A stretch of 64,000 nt of DNA from Phycisphaerales bacterium (lineage in GTDB: Bacteria; Planctomycetota; Phycisphaerae; Phycisphaerales; SM1A02). Made by a program: the position numbers and the translations under genes. Numbering within the stretch: position 1 is the stretch's first letter; every line of letters begins with the position of its first letter. Location: the NCBI GenBank assembly GCA_029245245.1, contig JAQWPT010000034.1:124001-188000 (forward strand), read 5' to 3'. Under the pieces are notes generated by a model that was not told where the DNA came from, searched no databases, and saw nothing but the letters and a program-made list of their open reading frames with translations. Shown in pieces: positions 24,406 through 30,544 of this stretch.

Positions 24406-24987
24406 TCAGTGACTGCCAGCCGAGATGGCCTTTGGCTGCTCTGGTGGTGAACCGGGATTTGGAATCCTGAGCATGGCGATTCGGCGGAGATCACGAAGCA
24501 CTTCGATCGTCCCGGCACGGGGACCACGAGTCAGCATCCAGTCGCAACCATCAATGCGGGCAACTGCGTCGTACAAGCCTTTGGCCGCGAGTTGCTCAAG
24601 AACATCACGGACAGTTCCCTTCAACAGAGTCGTGGGGTGTACCGCATCAGCACAGGGGCCACCGTCGACGCTCAGAACGACATGGTCATCCAGGCCGATG
24701 GGCGTGAACCGTGGTGGCGTGTACACGGTGATGACACCATGGACCAACTCGCTCGGGAGTGTGCCATCTTCCGATGGCACACTCCGGATGAACCTGATCC
24801 GCCCCACGAACTCATTCTCGAAGGGTTGCTCGCATCCCTGGGCAAGCAGGAGCACCACGAGCAGACAGGTCGGGTGCGGGACGGCGACCAAGGGGCTGCT
24901 CGGGCCCCCCGCCCGGCCTGGCATGCCGCCCCCCCCAGCCATGATCCTGAAAAGACGATTGATGGAAGTCATGTCCATCAGGATCAC
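24406..24987 (-). CDS. Putative secreted or lipoprotein of unknown function
   Basis: A reading frame of 193 residues with a hydrophobic segment TCLLVVLLLAQGC near residue 40 that looks like an atypical lipobox, followed by a plausible globular part containing FVGRIRFIRSVPSEDG and TVRDVLEQLAAKGLYDAVARIDGCDWML. The last part mentions a helix-strand pattern but no known family. The exact start is uncertain; an ATG just before the hydrophobic part (GMPGRAGG) may be used. The opposite strand frame is Arg/Ser-rich and looks like a shadow. Moderate confidence that it is a gene. Confidence 0.5.
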   Translation of the reverse strand: MILMDMTSINRLFRIMAGGGGMPGRAGGPSSPLVAVPHPTCLLVVLLLAQGCEQPFENEFVGRIRFIRSVPSEDGTLPSELVHGVITVYTPPRFTPIGLDDHVVLSVDGGPCADAVHPTTLLKGTVRDVLEQLAAKGLYDAVARIDGCDWMLTRGPRAGTIEVLRDLRRIAMLRIPNPGSPPEQPKAISAGSH

Positions 24988-25006: not shown

Positions 25007-25026
25007 TGATTTCGTGCCTGAAATCA
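25007..25026. promoter_or_regulatory. Inverted repeat upstream of the HTH-TPR operon
   Basis: Arms TGATTTC and GAAATCA around a 6-bp spacer lie in the 239-bp gap between the putative lipoprotein gene and the divergent HTH-TPR gene. Its place suits an operator for either gene, perhaps for the HTH-TPR regulator itself. No consensus is known. Confidence 0.35.
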
Positions 25027-25226
25027 CAAACCTGCCTTTTCGCCCCCCCCAATCCGAAGGGCCTTAGAGCGGGGAAACGAAGTCAGTCGACTTTTTTCTT
25101 TTCTTGTCCGTTGGCAGCTGGAACCGGTTTAGGTTTCTATCAGAACGTTGTCTGTCCGGTATGGGAGCCGGGAGAAAGAGACGGATGGCGATGTGAAAGC
25201 GAGCGTTCTTGGAGAGGAGTCCCATC

Positions 25227-26480
25227 ATGAATGGAAATGGTAAAAAACGAGAGCGGCTGGAGCGGCTGCTTGATCTTGCGCAGGTCTATCGGAGTTGGAA
25301 TCGGAAGGAGCTGGCGGGGGCGCTCGGACGTGATCCGACCAAACTCGTGCCAGGTTCCGGCAATCCAAAACTCGATCTTGTGATGCACCTTGCGGAAGCA
25401 CTGGACTGGTCCATCGGAGATGTGAGCGAGTGCCTGCTGAATGAAGATGCTCTGGAAGAACGCGTCATACAGATGGAGCACTCCACCATCGACACGTTTG
25501 ATTCCATGGATGCCAAGGCACTTGAAGCACATGAGAACGGGCTCTTCACCGATATGGAGCGGTTCGCCGACATGGCCTACCGCCTTGCCGAATCTCCAAC
25601 CCAGCGAGCTCTGGCCTGCATTCGCAGCTTCGGCGCCTGGGATGGTCTTGGCCGGTACTCCAAGAGCCTTGAGTCTGCACAACGCGGCCTCATGGAATGC
25701 CCCATCGATGATGAAATCCGGCGTGCACTGCAATCCAACCTTGCCAACGCGTACTACACACTCTGGCACCTGGTTGAGGCACGTGCGACATCAGCTGAAC
25801 TCATCGAGAACTACGGATCAAACCCACCGACAACTACATGGGATCGATGCTCCCAGGCGTTTTCGTACTACGTACTCGGCAACACCTACCGACGGCTCAT
25901 CGGAACCGAGCCCGTTCATGCCGCCAAGCATGCAGGCACGACCATTCAGCATCTGGAAGCCTGCCAGGCACTGTGCCGGGAACTGGCCGAGGAAGCTCCC
26001 TATTGGGACGCCGTTGGACGTACCGCCGAGGGCGGCATCATCGAAGCCCAGGTCATCACCGGTCAACGTGATGCTCGTTCGGCCCTTGCCGACATCACCG
26101 ATGCACTCGGCTCAGCCGTGGATCTTGAAGCGTTCGAAAACGCGGATTCCATTGAGAGCCATGGATGGTGGTGCATCTATGGATGCAATATCGCCATCAG
26201 GCATGTCACCGACGAGAAGGATCTCCAGAGGTACATGGCACTGTTCACGAACAAGGCCGATGAGATCGCAAACAAGTTGGACAACTGGTCGATGCGGGAA
26301 CGCGTGTTCTCGATGCAGTACCAGGGACATCGTCGTTTCGTGGGATGGACCGGCCAGGAAATTCCCATGACGATCGATTCCGAAGACATCAAGATGATCA
26401 CCGGGACGATGGGACGGTTCCCTCGGTTCCGAAAGACTGGATGGAACATCCTCCAGTCTGCCAACGTTGTCCAAGCCTGA
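25227..26480 (+). CDS. Helix-turn-helix/TPR-like regulator
   Basis: A 417-residue, Cys-poor cytoplasmic protein. Residues about 15-70 look like a Cro/CI-type HTH: RKELAGALGRDPTKLVPG followed by LDLVMHLAEALDWSIGDV. The rest is alpha-helical with TPR-like pairs (for example IRRALQSNLANAYYTLWHLVEARATSAELI), suited to bind a peptide or protein. The ATG at 25227 follows AGGAG at 8-nt spacing. A small secreted protein gene starts 15 nt downstream, so the two share a transcript. The plan recalls RRNPP regulators of Firmicutes, but a link is inference. Confidence 0.65.
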   Translation: MNGNGKKRERLERLLDLAQVYRSWNRKELAGALGRDPTKLVPGSGNPKLDLVMHLAEALDWSIGDVSECLLNEDALEERVIQMEHSTIDTFDSMDAKALEAHENGLFTDMERFADMAYRLAESPTQRALACIRSFGAWDGLGRYSKSLESAQRGLMECPIDDEIRRALQSNLANAYYTLWHLVEARATSAELIENYGSNPPTTTWDRCSQAFSYYVLGNTYRRLIGTEPVHAAKHAGTTIQHLEACQALCRELAEEAPYWDAVGRTAEGGIIEAQVITGQRDARSALADITDALGSAVDLEAFENADSIESHGWWCIYGCNIAIRHVTDEKDLQRYMALFTNKADEIANKLDNWSMRERVFSMQYQGHRRFVGWTGQEIPMTIDSEDIKMITGTMGRFPRFRKTGWNILQSANVVQA

Positions 26481-26495
26481 GAAAGGAGGCACGTC

Positions 26496-26954
26496 ATGAA
26501 CAAGAAGATTCTTACAATCGGATCATGGTTCGTCGCCTGCCTTGCCCTCGGGCTGCTGGCACCACGAGGCTTGGCTTCTCTCGATGCGGATCCCGGATTC
26601 AGTCTGGGAACCAATCCGACGGTCGTCAGCGATTACCGGGACATCCTTGCCCATTCCAACCAGGGCGGCAAGAAGAAGCAGAAGCTCCTCAAGTACAACC
26701 TTGCCGGCCGATCCATGCCCGGTCCGGTCCCCGGACCAGATGGAGACACGGGTGGTCTTCTGGTCGAGTTCAAGGAACCGACCATGCCGATCATTGGATA
26801 CACCAAGGACATCCAGGTTTTCGCACTGAACCTTACGAGCATGAGTCTTTCCGAAGGCTCCAGCGGAAACAGCGGTGGACTCGTTCCTGCTCCAGGTGGC
26901 CTGCTCCTGCTGGGGCTGGGCGCACTGGGACGCCGCAGGAAACGAAAAGCCTGA
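26496..26954 (+). CDS. Small exported protein with a PEP-CTERM-like (VPAPG) C-terminal sorting signal
   Basis: A 152-residue protein with an N-terminal signal peptide (hydrophobic 6-27, cleavage likely after GLA at about 27), a short unfamiliar body with a GPVPGPDGDTGG turn, and a C-terminal VPAPGGLLLLGLGALGRRR plus basic tail. That last part fits the PEP-CTERM type of signal handled by exosortases: short proline motif, hydrophobic helix, Arg-rich end. Exosortase itself is not in the window. A GAAAGGAGG ribosome site lies in the 15-nt gap after the HTH-TPR gene. The body has no recognised family. Confidence 0.7.
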   Translation: MNKKILTIGSWFVACLALGLLAPRGLASLDADPGFSLGTNPTVVSDYRDILAHSNQGGKKKQKLLKYNLAGRSMPGPVPGPDGDTGGLLVEFKEPTMPIIGYTKDIQVFALNLTSMSLSEGSSGNSGGLVPAPGGLLLLGLGALGRRRKRKA

Positions 26955-27050: not shown

Positions 27051-28016
27051 TCATGCCGTACGACGAATCAAGGCCATGTAGAAGCCCGTCAGGCCCCCGC
27101 CCCCACCGGGAAGCAGACGCAGTGAATGGCGCAACGATGCGTCAAACTCCTGCTCCTGCCAACTCGTGAGGCCGGACGTTCCATTCGGGAGCTCCACCGA
27201 CATGGCTTCCAGGCTGTATTGGCCAGCGTGCTTCTTCAGCACACGATCAACAACGTGTTCATTCTCTTCTGGAGCGTAGGTGCACGTCGAGTACATGCAG
27301 CAGCCTCCGACGCGAAGCGTACGAAGAGCCGCGGAAAGCAGGCCCAGTTGCTGCCGGGCGAGCCGCCGAATACGACCTTCACTCCACTGGGCCAGGCCCT
27401 GGGGGTTCGATGCATGCAACATGCCTTCCCCACTGCAAGGCGCATCGACCAGCACCCGGTCAAAGCAATCGACATGCGAGGAACCGAAGGCTGCACCGGG
27501 ATGGCACGTGACTTCCGCGTTTGAGACGCCCAACTGGCGAAGATGAGCCCGCAGTTTGAACAGTCGCTGTCGACTCCGATCGTTTGCAACCAGGATCCCT
27601 GATCCCTGCTGGAGTTGGCTGATCAGCGTCGTCTTGCTCCCTGGCGCTGCGCAGAGATCAAGCACATCATGTCCCGGATCGATCGAGAGTCCAACGACCG
27701 CCGCCATGCTGGACAGGGACTGGATCCAGAGGTGCCCCTTGGCAAAGGCGTTCGTCTCCTGCACGGACGATCGGTCACCGCCATGCAGGCGGAATGCCCA
27801 CGGGTACCACGAAACCACCTCGGGCTCGAACCCACCCGCTTCCAGTTCGACATGCACGGCGTCACGAACCTGTTCGTCACCCTGCACCCGGACCGACAAC
27901 GGCCGAGGGCCGTGGATCGATGACAGCACAGCCCGGCAACCAGCCTCCCCCGCAATCTCATTCAGTCGTTCGGTAAAGGCTTCGGGCAATGATGGAGTCG
28001 AAGCATGTTCGCCCAT
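27051..28016 (-). CDS. NOL1/NOP2/Sun-family RNA (cytosine-5-) methyltransferase
   Basis: A 321-residue SAM-dependent RNA m5C methyltransferase. It has DLCAAPGSKTTLI (SAM motif I), VDAPCSGEGM with the release cysteine of the PCS motif, and YSTCTYAPEENE with the catalytic cysteine of TCT. There is no N-terminal NusB-like domain as in RsmB, so it is nearer to RsmF/YebU or archaeal types; target site unknown. The ATG at 28016 overlaps the kinase stop as TGATG, with an alternative GTG one codon upstream. It is the last gene of the sigma factor-kinase operon. Confidence 0.88.
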   Translation of the reverse strand: MGEHASTPSLPEAFTERLNEIAGEAGCRAVLSSIHGPRPLSVRVQGDEQVRDAVHVELEAGGFEPEVVSWYPWAFRLHGGDRSSVQETNAFAKGHLWIQSLSSMAAVVGLSIDPGHDVLDLCAAPGSKTTLISQLQQGSGILVANDRSRQRLFKLRAHLRQLGVSNAEVTCHPGAAFGSSHVDCFDRVLVDAPCSGEGMLHASNPQGLAQWSEGRIRRLARQQLGLLSAALRTLRVGGCCMYSTCTYAPEENEHVVDRVLKKHAGQYSLEAMSVELPNGTSGLTSWQEQEFDASLRHSLRLLPGGGGGLTGFYMALIRRTA

Positions 28017-30544
28017 CACTTGCCGTCCTGGGCCTGTTCGATGCGTTGGGACCAGAGTGTCATCTGGGTGGTGTCCCCGGTCGCCTCGTAGAGATCACGC
28101 AGGCCGTTCATCGCCCGGAAAGTCTGTCGATGGCCGCTGCCGTACTTGTCGGCAAGGAGGCGATGTCCGTTGATCAGCAGGACCTCCGCTTCCTGATGCT
28201 GTCCCAATCGTGACAACGCCAGGGCCAGACCGACCTCCTGCTCGGCGGCCTGCCAGCTCTCGGGCCCATAGGAACGTCGACAGATGCTCAGCGATCGCTG
28301 GTAGGTATCGCGAGCGGCCTCGTATTGGCCCAGCTTGAACAGGACCTGGCCATACACGTTCGAGGCATTGGCGACGACTGAATGGTTCGGTCCGAAACGG
28401 GACTGGAAGACTTCAATCGCTTCCCGCAGGTGCGGCTCCGCATCGAGGTTCTTGTCCATCTTGTGCAGCACCGATCCAAGACCAAGCAGCGACTTGCCGA
28501 TTTCCGAATGCCCCTCGGGGTAGAACCGGCGACGCTGCGCGAGGGACTCGCGATGAAGCGACTCCGCCTCCTCCAGTCGATCACGCTGCCACATCACGAC
28601 CGCGAGATTGGTCAGGATCGTTGCGCTCATGGGTGACACCGCCTGCCCATTGTCGCGCAGATCCGCCAAGGCCTCCCGGTAGAGTTTCTCAGCCTCGTCA
28701 GATTCCTTGCGCTTGCGATGCAGCCTCGCCATCGTGATCTTGAGTTCGGTGATGTCAATCAGGTCCGGATTCGTATCCTTCATTCGCAGTTGGAGCGACT
28801 CGTTCGCCTGTGCCATCGCCTCATCGATCTTTCCCTCGCTCTCGGCGACCCGCCCCAGGGCGTGCAGAGTCGCAGCACGATCTGACAGATCACCCGGTCC
28901 ATCCCAGATCGCCAGGCATGCCTCGAAGGAACTCCGGGCCTCTTCGATTTCCCCGAGCACCAGGTACAGGTAGCCGAGGTCGTATCGACTCTCGGCCACG
29001 GGCAGGGAATCAACGCCAATCGCATCGATCCGCAACTGGAGCGAGTTCTCCAGGTGCGACCTGGCCTCCGGCAGCTTGTCCAATGCAAGATAGGTGTTGC
29101 CGATCGCTTCCAGGAGCGCCGACTGGACTTCCGGCTCCACGACACTTCGCTGGTCCGCGATGCGAGCCGCCTGGTCGATCATCTCCCGAACCGTCAACTC
29201 CGTTCCAAGCCCATGTTCCGGCTGGAGTGATTCGATGATGTCCGTGTACATGTCGGTCACTTCGCCACGCATCCGGGACTCTCGTTCCACTGCAACCAGA
29301 CGCTCCCCCGCGATCCGCTCGGCCTTGACCGCCCGATACCAGAGTATGGACATGGAAATGGAAACCAGGACAAGGGCCAGGACCACCCCCGTACCGACCA
29401 TCAACGGCAGTCGATAGCGACGCATGACCTTCCCCAGCACGTAGGAGGCATTGTCACGCATCGCCTCGACAGGCTCGCCATCAAGGTAATTCTGCAGGTC
29501 CTGGGCGAAGGCAGCCGCAGACTGGTAGCGATGGTCTGGATCCTTCTCGAGCGACTTGAGGACGATTGCCTGCAAGTCACGCTTGATGCCCGGCTCGTGG
29601 CGGGTCAGCGGCGCCGCTTCGGTGGAAGTGATGTTCTTGATGATGTCCGCCACCGAGCCACGGACTGGATACGGGTGCTCCTCCGTAAGGAGCTCATAGA
29701 GGATGAGGCCCAGTGCGTACACGTCGCTTCGGGTATCGACGGCATCCGCATCACCCTTGACCTGTTCGGGTGACGCATAGGCGAAGGTGCCAACGAACTC
29801 CCCGGTCAGGGTCGCCTCGGTCCCCGATGACGGACCAATGACCTTGGCCACCCCGAAATCAAAGACCTTCGGTGTGCCAGTGCGGTCAACCATGATGTTC
29901 CCGGGCTTCAGATCCCGGTGAATGATGCCACGCTGGTGGGCATACTGGATGGCATGGCAGATCGAAATGAACTGCTGGATTCGGATTCGGAATGAATCCT
30001 CGTGATCATCAGGCAGTGTATCCCGGCCGAAGATGTGGGCACGGGACAGGGGAACACCCTTGATGAATTCCATGACGAAGAAACTGCTGCCGTCTGGAAG
30101 CGAACCACTGTCGTATACGGTCACGATATTTTCGTGACGGAGGGAGGCGATCAGTTCGACTTCCCGCTCGAAGCGCTGGCGGGCCCGCTCACTGGCGAGT
30201 GCACCGCCAAGCATGACCTTGATGGCGACGATGCGCTTGGTGTTTTCCTGGAGTCCCTTGTAAACGACTCCCTGCCCACCACGAAAGACCTCATTGATGA
30301 TCCGGTAGCCCTCGATCTGCTGGCGTGGAGGACCGGACTTGGTGGCGCCGGGCATCGTCGACCATGCGCCGGCAAGTTTTGTCAGGAAGTCGTTTTCCTC
30401 CTGGATGCGAACGACCTCACGCATCAACTCCGTGTTGGATTCGATCTGGCCAACAAGCGTGGGGTCTTCGAGCTCACCCGCTGCATAGGCTTCGATCAGG
30501 TCGCGGGGAAAGGGAAGGGAATCGTCTCGATTCGTGGAACTCAC
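28016..30544 (-). CDS. Membrane Ser/Thr protein kinase with C-terminal TPR-type sensor region
   Basis: An 842-residue protein kinase. After a 75-residue N-terminal segment resembling anti-sigma-like leaders (LIEAYAAGELEDP), the kinase domain (about 80-345) has all key parts: FRGGQGVVYKG loop, K109 in VAIKV, HRDLKPGNI with D211, DFG at 229-231 and ASPEQ. One membrane helix spans about 380-402; the C-terminal 440 residues are helical repeats with TPR features such as ALEAIGNTYLALDKLPEAR. It starts at GTG 30544, overlapping the sigma-factor stop as GTGA. Repeats outside and kinase inside would suit a sensor; topology is inferred. Confidence 0.9.
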   Translation of the reverse strand: MSSTNRDDSLPFPRDLIEAYAAGELEDPTLVGQIESNTELMREVVRIQEENDFLTKLAGAWSTMPGATKSGPPRQQIEGYRIINEVFRGGQGVVYKGLQENTKRIVAIKVMLGGALASERARQRFEREVELIASLRHENIVTVYDSGSLPDGSSFFVMEFIKGVPLSRAHIFGRDTLPDDHEDSFRIRIQQFISICHAIQYAHQRGIIHRDLKPGNIMVDRTGTPKVFDFGVAKVIGPSSGTEATLTGEFVGTFAYASPEQVKGDADAVDTRSDVYALGLILYELLTEEHPYPVRGSVADIIKNITSTEAAPLTRHEPGIKRDLQAIVLKSLEKDPDHRYQSAAAFAQDLQNYLDGEPVEAMRDNASYVLGKVMRRYRLPLMVGTGVVLALVLVSISMSILWYRAVKAERIAGERLVAVERESRMRGEVTDMYTDIIESLQPEHGLGTELTVREMIDQAARIADQRSVVEPEVQSALLEAIGNTYLALDKLPEARSHLENSLQLRIDAIGVDSLPVAESRYDLGYLYLVLGEIEEARSSFEACLAIWDGPGDLSDRAATLHALGRVAESEGKIDEAMAQANESLQLRMKDTNPDLIDITELKITMARLHRKRKESDEAEKLYREALADLRDNGQAVSPMSATILTNLAVVMWQRDRLEEAESLHRESLAQRRRFYPEGHSEIGKSLLGLGSVLHKMDKNLDAEPHLREAIEVFQSRFGPNHSVVANASNVYGQVLFKLGQYEAARDTYQRSLSICRRSYGPESWQAAEQEVGLALALSRLGQHQEAEVLLINGHRLLADKYGSGHRQTFRAMNGLRDLYEATGDTTQMTLWSQRIEQAQDGK

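Follow-up and report, generated by a model that had tools for sequence, protein, structure and literature searches.

The window, the whole 64,000-nucleotide stretch of DNA analysed here, comes from a planctomycete of the order Phycisphaerales and contains an HTH-TPR regulator gene followed on the same strand by a gene for a smaller exported protein (Table 1). According to the ORF list and the sequence, 15 nt separate the stop of the regulator from the start of its partner, and inspection of the sequence found good ribosome-binding sites for both genes. The two reading frames, their lengths, the gap and the VPAPG tail of the partner agree with the original prediction, which had described the genes as a possible peptide-sensing pair. 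Two neighbouring genes are also kept in G002, G006, G378 and G036, the relatives in which this was checked, indicating that the synteny there is partly inherited chromosomal context. An 842-aa protein encoded at 28016-30544 on the reverse strand resembles, by eye, a Ser/Thr kinase bearing TPR-like repeats and a transmembrane segment.

Table 1. Features of the gene pair and of the DNA upstream of it, in window positions
Feature	Position	Strand	Evidence or remark
Divergent gene, 193 aa	24406-24987	-	Starts at 24987, borders the palindrome region
Perfect inverted repeat TGATTTC-N6-GAAATCA, candidate operator, in the divergent intergenic region	25007-25026		Lies 201-220 nt ahead of the regulator start
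Another conserved footprint upstream, AACGAAGTCAGTCGACTTTTTTCTTTTC, with a short stem and a T-run; candidate promoter or attenuator	25076-25103	+	1 of 28 positions changed relative to G002
Regulator of 417 aa with HTH and TPR parts, putative receptor for a peptide	25227-26480	+	Ribosome-binding site GGAGAGGAG at 25211-25219
XRE-like HTH domain, residues ~8-72, recognition-helix region shortened by 3 residues	25248-25442	+	hhalign; helix order in the AlphaFold2 model
TPR superhelix, residues 91-411, putative peptide-binding domain	25497-26459	+	AlphaFold2 model, TPR profile match, fold matches
Exported partner, 152 aa, putative signal precursor	26496-26954	+	Ribosome-binding site AGGAGG at 26484-26489
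Predicted Sec-type signal peptide, ending near residue 28	26496-26579	+	Sequence by eye and in-house rule
Short conserved motif HSNQG (residues 53-57), candidate mature-peptide core	26652-26666	+	Motif scans, comparison with relatives
PEP-CTERM-like sorting tail VPAPGG...RRRKRKA, residues 130-152	26883-26951	+	PF07589, below cut-off

Other identities of the locus were set aside. An anti-phage system was discarded, with no PADLOC match on it. A phage origin was rejected because the only PHROGs match had an E value of 0.071 and a tblastn scan of viral contigs found no relatives, and a known RNA element because Rfam gave no match in the locus.

The N-terminal profile of the regulator was compared with 23 XRE HTH segments taken from its own family and order. 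Hhalign returned a probability of 95 (E = 3.8e-8), and six TPR-region slices compared with the same segments as a negative control reached at most 1.7. The alignment places a 3-residue deletion in the recognition-helix region of the regulator relative to the XRE proteins. The Pfam and NCBIfam searches of the window regulator found neither HTH nor TPR above the cut-offs. A PDB sequence search with the HTH region as a single sequence gave no match; with the HTH profile, weak matches (E 0.15 and worse) were obtained, XRE proteins among them. Of the residues that are invariant or nearly so in the family alignment, many fall within the N-terminal region and near the C terminus. An HTH-like fold of the first 70 residues had been set in advance as a point on which the idea could fail, and it was upheld by the hhalign match and the helical N-terminal domain of the structural model. 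The N terminus of the regulator is XRE-like and is predicted to bind DNA.

The AlphaFold2 model of the regulator (pLDDT 91.6, pTM 0.79) has this N-terminal helical domain and then paired helices up to residue 411. The Pfam TPR_2 model reached an E value of only 0.053 on the single window sequence, and the regulator family profile matched TPR consensus chains at 4.7e-16. In a Foldseek search with the model, LGN ranked 1, PlcR-PapR-DNA 19 and Rap-CSF 23. The VIA-align Z scores were 22.1 for TSK, 19.4 for LGN, 19.2 for MalT domain III, 18.7 for Rap-CSF and 18.4 for NprR-NprX. The TPR-like body proposed earlier is backed by a confident superhelix model, by fold matches and by a profile match. Because the scores of LGN, TSK and MalT equal or exceed those of the RRNPP proteins, the superhelix is compatible with RRNPP receptors and not specific for them; as modelled, the body resembles Rap, NprR and PlcR and also unrelated TPR proteins. 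No RRNPP receptor family model was matched in Pfam (57 members) or in NCBIfam (window protein only).

The partner tail scored 16.8 bits against Pfam PF07589 (E = 0.0074; cut-off 20.7 bits) and 20.2 bits in a genome-wide search. Searching the genome with PF07589 up to E 10 yielded 14 matches, one of them above the cut-off. The genome encodes one exosortase, of the EpsH type (155.8 bits), and one OppA-type binding protein. Partners in the relatives vary from 60 to 554 aa. By eye, many have PEP-CTERM-like tails, others are tail-less proteins of 60-160 aa, and still others recall propellers, beta-helices or peptidases, in some cases ending in a dockerin-like part. Two partners in family code f19 are of only 60 aa, that is, a signal peptide plus about 32 residues. 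The exosortase-type tail stressed by the original prediction is not the element held constant, being absent from many partners. Outside the window, three similar PEP-CTERM-type proteins lie close together on one strand of G000 contig C10 (210252-212630).

The search for relatives gave 199 ORFs with a regulator match. After 7 partial matches and 1 at a contig end were dropped, clustering at 90% identity left 130 non-redundant complete regulators. An ORF with a signal peptide that started no more than 150 nt from the regulator stop was called a partner by an in-house rule (not SignalP). This rule was positive for 119 of the 130, and 38 of these 119 partners start at -4 relative to the regulator stop. 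Six were judged false by eye (L155, L156, L064, L049, L069 and the second copy of L137), leaving 113; L072, overlooked by the rule, was added by hand, giving 114. The gapped-pair scan and the identity comparison use the 113, and the motif counts use all 119. After curation, an exported protein lies directly downstream of 114 of the 130 regulators, another family regulator follows in 3, and 13 have no credible partner. As a control, the uncurated rule was applied to other long ORFs of the same loci, of which 128 of 498 passed (26%) and 4 carried the motif pattern described below. Adjacency in relatives, the other test set beforehand, was thus borne out. Dispersed paralogues within single genomes retain the pair, and so do members of further families and orders in the class. 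The regulators L155 and L156 (genus code g53) have no exported partner and are followed by a gene whose product looks, by eye, like a membrane protein for cation efflux; they are possible orphan receptors. In G001, from the genus of the window, the regulator homologue L067 is split over frames near N runs at a contig end, which may reflect an assembly gap or decay.

Homologues were found in 31 of 61 genomes in the first search. With a 57-row profile, they were found in 162 of 400 genomes of the order, a sample of a larger group. The class sample gave 52 of 397 genomes; outside the order, full-length relatives occurred only in family codes f19 and f22, and three other genomes had nothing beyond partial matches. 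The phylum sample gave 20 of 392 genomes, 11 of which lie outside the class and had only partial matches to the TPR region (E 7e-7 to 9e-5). Among the sampled genomes, full-length relatives are restricted to Phycisphaerae, with class assigned by record titles. From GTDB, 190 related stretches were obtained and 80 kept, nearly all named Phycisphaerales, Phycisphaerae or other Planctomycetota, with few other names.

The partners have a short motif in common. H-[STN]-x-Q-[DEG] was found in 73 of the 119 rule-positive partners, compared with a mean of 0.40 and a maximum of 3 in within-protein shuffles, and the same 73 motif bearers are among the 113 curated partners; two or more copies occur in 9 partners. 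The discovery set contributed 25 of 56, and the loci outside that set 48 of 63 (shuffle mean 0.25). The N at position 2 was added after part of the second set had been seen; H[ST]xQ[DEG], as originally noted, was found in 42 of these 63, against 0.14. In an unbiased scan of gapped residue pairs, HxxQ ranked top, with 78 of the 113 curated partners against 11.7 in shuffles. The motif is absent from 46 of the 119, including the partners of G028 and of the examined G016 loci. Its carriers also include unrelated-looking proteins, among them some of 340-554 aa. Of six motif-bearing loci in one later set, three (L296, L299 and L297) coincide with L190, L195 and L191 and so are not independent.

Of 12 other PEP-CTERM-like proteins in the genome, none contains H[STN]xQ, indicating that the motif tracks the regulator rather than surface anchoring. 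L253 was excluded from this comparison set because by eye it is not PEP-CTERM-like; the motif is absent there too. A DNA pattern for HSNQ[DEG] and its neighbours matched 8 places in the genome, and by eye only the one in the window lies in a signal-peptide protein.

Sequence conservation is concentrated at the motif. When 64 motif-bearing partners were each compared with the nearest relative, unselected for the motif, identity was 77% over the motif and two neighbours and 37% across the remaining mature sequence, in rows that are not mutually independent. Motif identity was the higher in 62 of the 64 comparisons, and the relative also bore the motif in 63. An earlier comparison of 443 pairs had required the motif in both members, which inflated the motif identity (0.73 versus 0.29). 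Relative to G002, the AHSNQGGKK segment of the window partner shows 4 synonymous and 0 amino-acid changes. At the level of sequence, a short motif common to such diverse partners provides strong circumstantial support for peptide sensing.

A second partner type carries HTMQEE, HTVQEE or HSMQE in a Trp-rich module closer to the C terminus, and HNEQG and GHIDIPEI-like variants occur in family code f2. G028 has 17 regulator-like frames (L031-L044), some of them truncated, and 15 have exported partners, most of which have another C-terminal module in common and lack the motif. Paralogues within one genome differ in their motifs in G022 (HTNQD, HTGQG and HTEQG), G021 (HTNQD and HSEQG), G490 (HSNQG and HSDQD) and G693 (HTNQD and HSNQD); both paralogues of G020 have HTNQD and so show no difference. 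In the two tandem cassettes on contig C10 of G016 (L047), about 117 nt of upstream DNA and the HTH region are near-identical, as is the C-terminal part of the partners. The TPR region and the N-terminal part of the partners have diverged to about 30-77% DNA identity. This pattern suggests gene conversion or cassette exchange. It would fit a common operator combined with distinct sensors, and other gene-conversion histories would fit too.

The inverted repeat upstream of the regulator, reported in the original prediction, is exact. In the 2.69-Mb assembly, the window's copy is the only one with 0 or 1 mismatch; every further site within the limit of the search has 2 mismatches. The 6-bp arms of the palindrome are retained at a similar distance in the nearest intact relative, G002, where the surrounding DNA has diverged. 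The alignment of the two intergenic regions shows two main conserved islands, the palindrome, placed in this comparison 213-219 nt ahead of the regulator start, and the second footprint. The divergent 193-aa gene has homologues in place in G001 and G002, from the same genus, and none was found in the G006, G378 and G036 loci. Given the start of this gene next to the palindrome and its homologue in G002, the palindrome could serve either side. Exact inverted repeats with 7-bp arms occur in 40 of 120 upstream regions, compared with a mean of 16.4 in mononucleotide shuffles, and terminators of upstream genes may contribute to this count. A family-wide operator was set aside, since the 120 regions yielded no common consensus. 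Of the operator proposal, the part that stands is a repeat kept between two species; no operator common to the family was found.

In a tethered single-chain fold of the regulator and its partner, the motif was not docked on the receptor. The pLDDT was below 50 for residues 446-575, with block means of 29-36 beyond residue 450. Because the other alignment rows were regulators only, this result is weak evidence against binding. Co-variation of receptor and motif was examined on a 76-row tree, where the trait chosen offered no more than 4-6 independent pairs, which gives the test too little power. The proposal of peptide sensing gained a conserved motif in diverse partners, and the missing RRNPP model match and the tethered fold without docking count against it.

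We give about an even chance to the reading in which the pair is an autoregulated operon for a receptor and its precursor, of an RRNPP-like kind. The exported protein would leave the cytoplasm via Sec, and the segment around H-[STN]-x-Q-[DEG] (AHSNQGGKK in the window) would be freed by proteolysis. The freed peptide would re-enter the cell through an oligopeptide importer and would sit in the groove of the TPR superhelix. Its binding would alter the contact of the XRE-like HTH with a palindrome ahead of its own operon, and possibly with further targets. The adjacency of the genes and its conservation, the shared motif and its conservation at the amino-acid level, the HTH-plus-TPR architecture, and the OppA-type and exosortase genes were all computed. 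Co-transcription, actual export of the window partner by the cell, peptide release and import, its binding to the receptor and the effect on regulation are inferred.

The PEP-CTERM-like tails of many partners and the exosortase in the genome also fit a surface-protein operon, in which the regulator controls a cell-surface protein, HxxQ has an extracellular role in binding, processing or assembly instead of being the regulator's ligand, and the TPR domain responds to some other input. The internal position of the motif, the tethered fold and the beta-helix, propeller or peptidase appearance (by eye) of some long partners point the same way. However, the carriers look structurally unrelated and some have only 60 aa, with the regulator gene still adjacent, and the motif is missing from the 12 other PEP-CTERM-like proteins encoded in the genome. 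We consider this explanation rather unlikely. Improbable, in our view, is a secretion-coupled feedback in which the TPR domain binds the motif in the unexported precursor and lagging export changes transcription of the operon. Neither release nor import would then be needed, and the tight linkage of the reading frames, with the frequent start at -4, would suit such a feedback, as would large precursors whose motif is internal and whose mature region is modelled with low confidence and probably disordered. The differing motif variants within single genomes and the 60-aa partners suit a secreted signal equally or better, and the lack of docking in the tethered model speaks against this feedback as well.

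That the genes are chance or hitchhiking neighbours with no functional link is hardly credible. Although the two adjacent genes are also conserved in G002, G006, G378 and G036, the pair persists among scattered paralogues of single genomes and in further families and orders, against the control rate of 26%, and its partners have a common motif. The peptide-signalling reading may be carried further, to a class-wide planctomycete family, for which we see somewhat less than an even chance. The signal (core HTNQD/HSNQG, with variants) would be cut from exported, often surface-anchored proteins, and such a protein may be both envelope component and precursor. One genome would hold about 15 pairs, and motif and receptor would have diversified in several genomes.

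PMC10075063 describes RRNPP systems from Gram-positive Firmicutes and their mobile elements. It characterises them by a Sec-secreted propeptide of 10-100 aa, a receptor of 250-500 aa with TPRs, and adjacent genes. Four of these five properties were found here: a predicted signal peptide (in-house rule, by eye), a receptor of 417 aa, TPRs (model, fold matches, profile) and adjacency (15-nt gap; 114 of 130 relatives). The fifth, propeptide size, was not, as the window precursor has 152 aa; in relatives some have 60-101 aa and many are larger. Because the propeptide exceeds the size limit and no RRNPP family model was matched, the pair was filed as RRNPP-like and not as a member. Like Rap-Phr, PlcR-PapR, NprR-NprX, Rgg-SHP and AimR-AimP, the window pair places a cytosolic TPR receptor beside the gene for a Sec-exported precursor. 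The DNA-binding members combine HTH and TPR, as the window regulator does, and the TPR fold is similar. The differences lie in the precursor (up to 554 aa in relatives, compared with 10-100 aa in the cited text), in the internal motif and in the sorting tail of many partners. The window regulator also differs in being unmatched by the Pfam and NCBIfam RRNPP models, the host is a planctomycete and not one of the Firmicutes, and peptide binding is putative here.

To our knowledge, the nearest described case is AloR-AloP of Paenibacillus. PMC7425212 reports 16 Alo loci in one strain and more than 25 pairs in some species, with AloP precursors of 32-50 aa whose secretion and processing were demonstrated by mass spectrometry. 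As portrayed there, an HTH-TPR receptor is directly followed by a short exported ORF, many paralogous pairs occur per genome, most receptors are too diverged for default TPR detection, and some copies have no peptide gene, all of which is similar here. In contrast to that system, precursors of the window family are mostly larger, and their secretion and processing are putative. PEP-CTERM/exosortase surface proteins are another likeness, since the window partner has VPAPGG, a hydrophobic stretch and RRRKRK, and an exosortase is encoded in the genome. They differ in that the window tail scores under the Pfam cut-off, many family partners are tail-less, and the 12 others are without the motif.

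Among the open-access papers listed by the literature searches, none concerns such a planctomycete system, judged by title and abstract start; most subscription papers lie outside this scope, and a description elsewhere is possible. The recurrence of the pair across one planctomycete class suggests a peptide-signalling system of a type so far known from other bacteria. The regulator profile together with HxxQ provides a sequence marker for finding more pairs. Candidate peptides that can be synthesized are given (HSNQG, HTNQD, HTMQE and others), making communication in mostly uncultured planctomycetes directly testable. If the reading is true, peptide signalling with the logic of RRNPP would extend to another phylum and would be conserved across Phycisphaerae.
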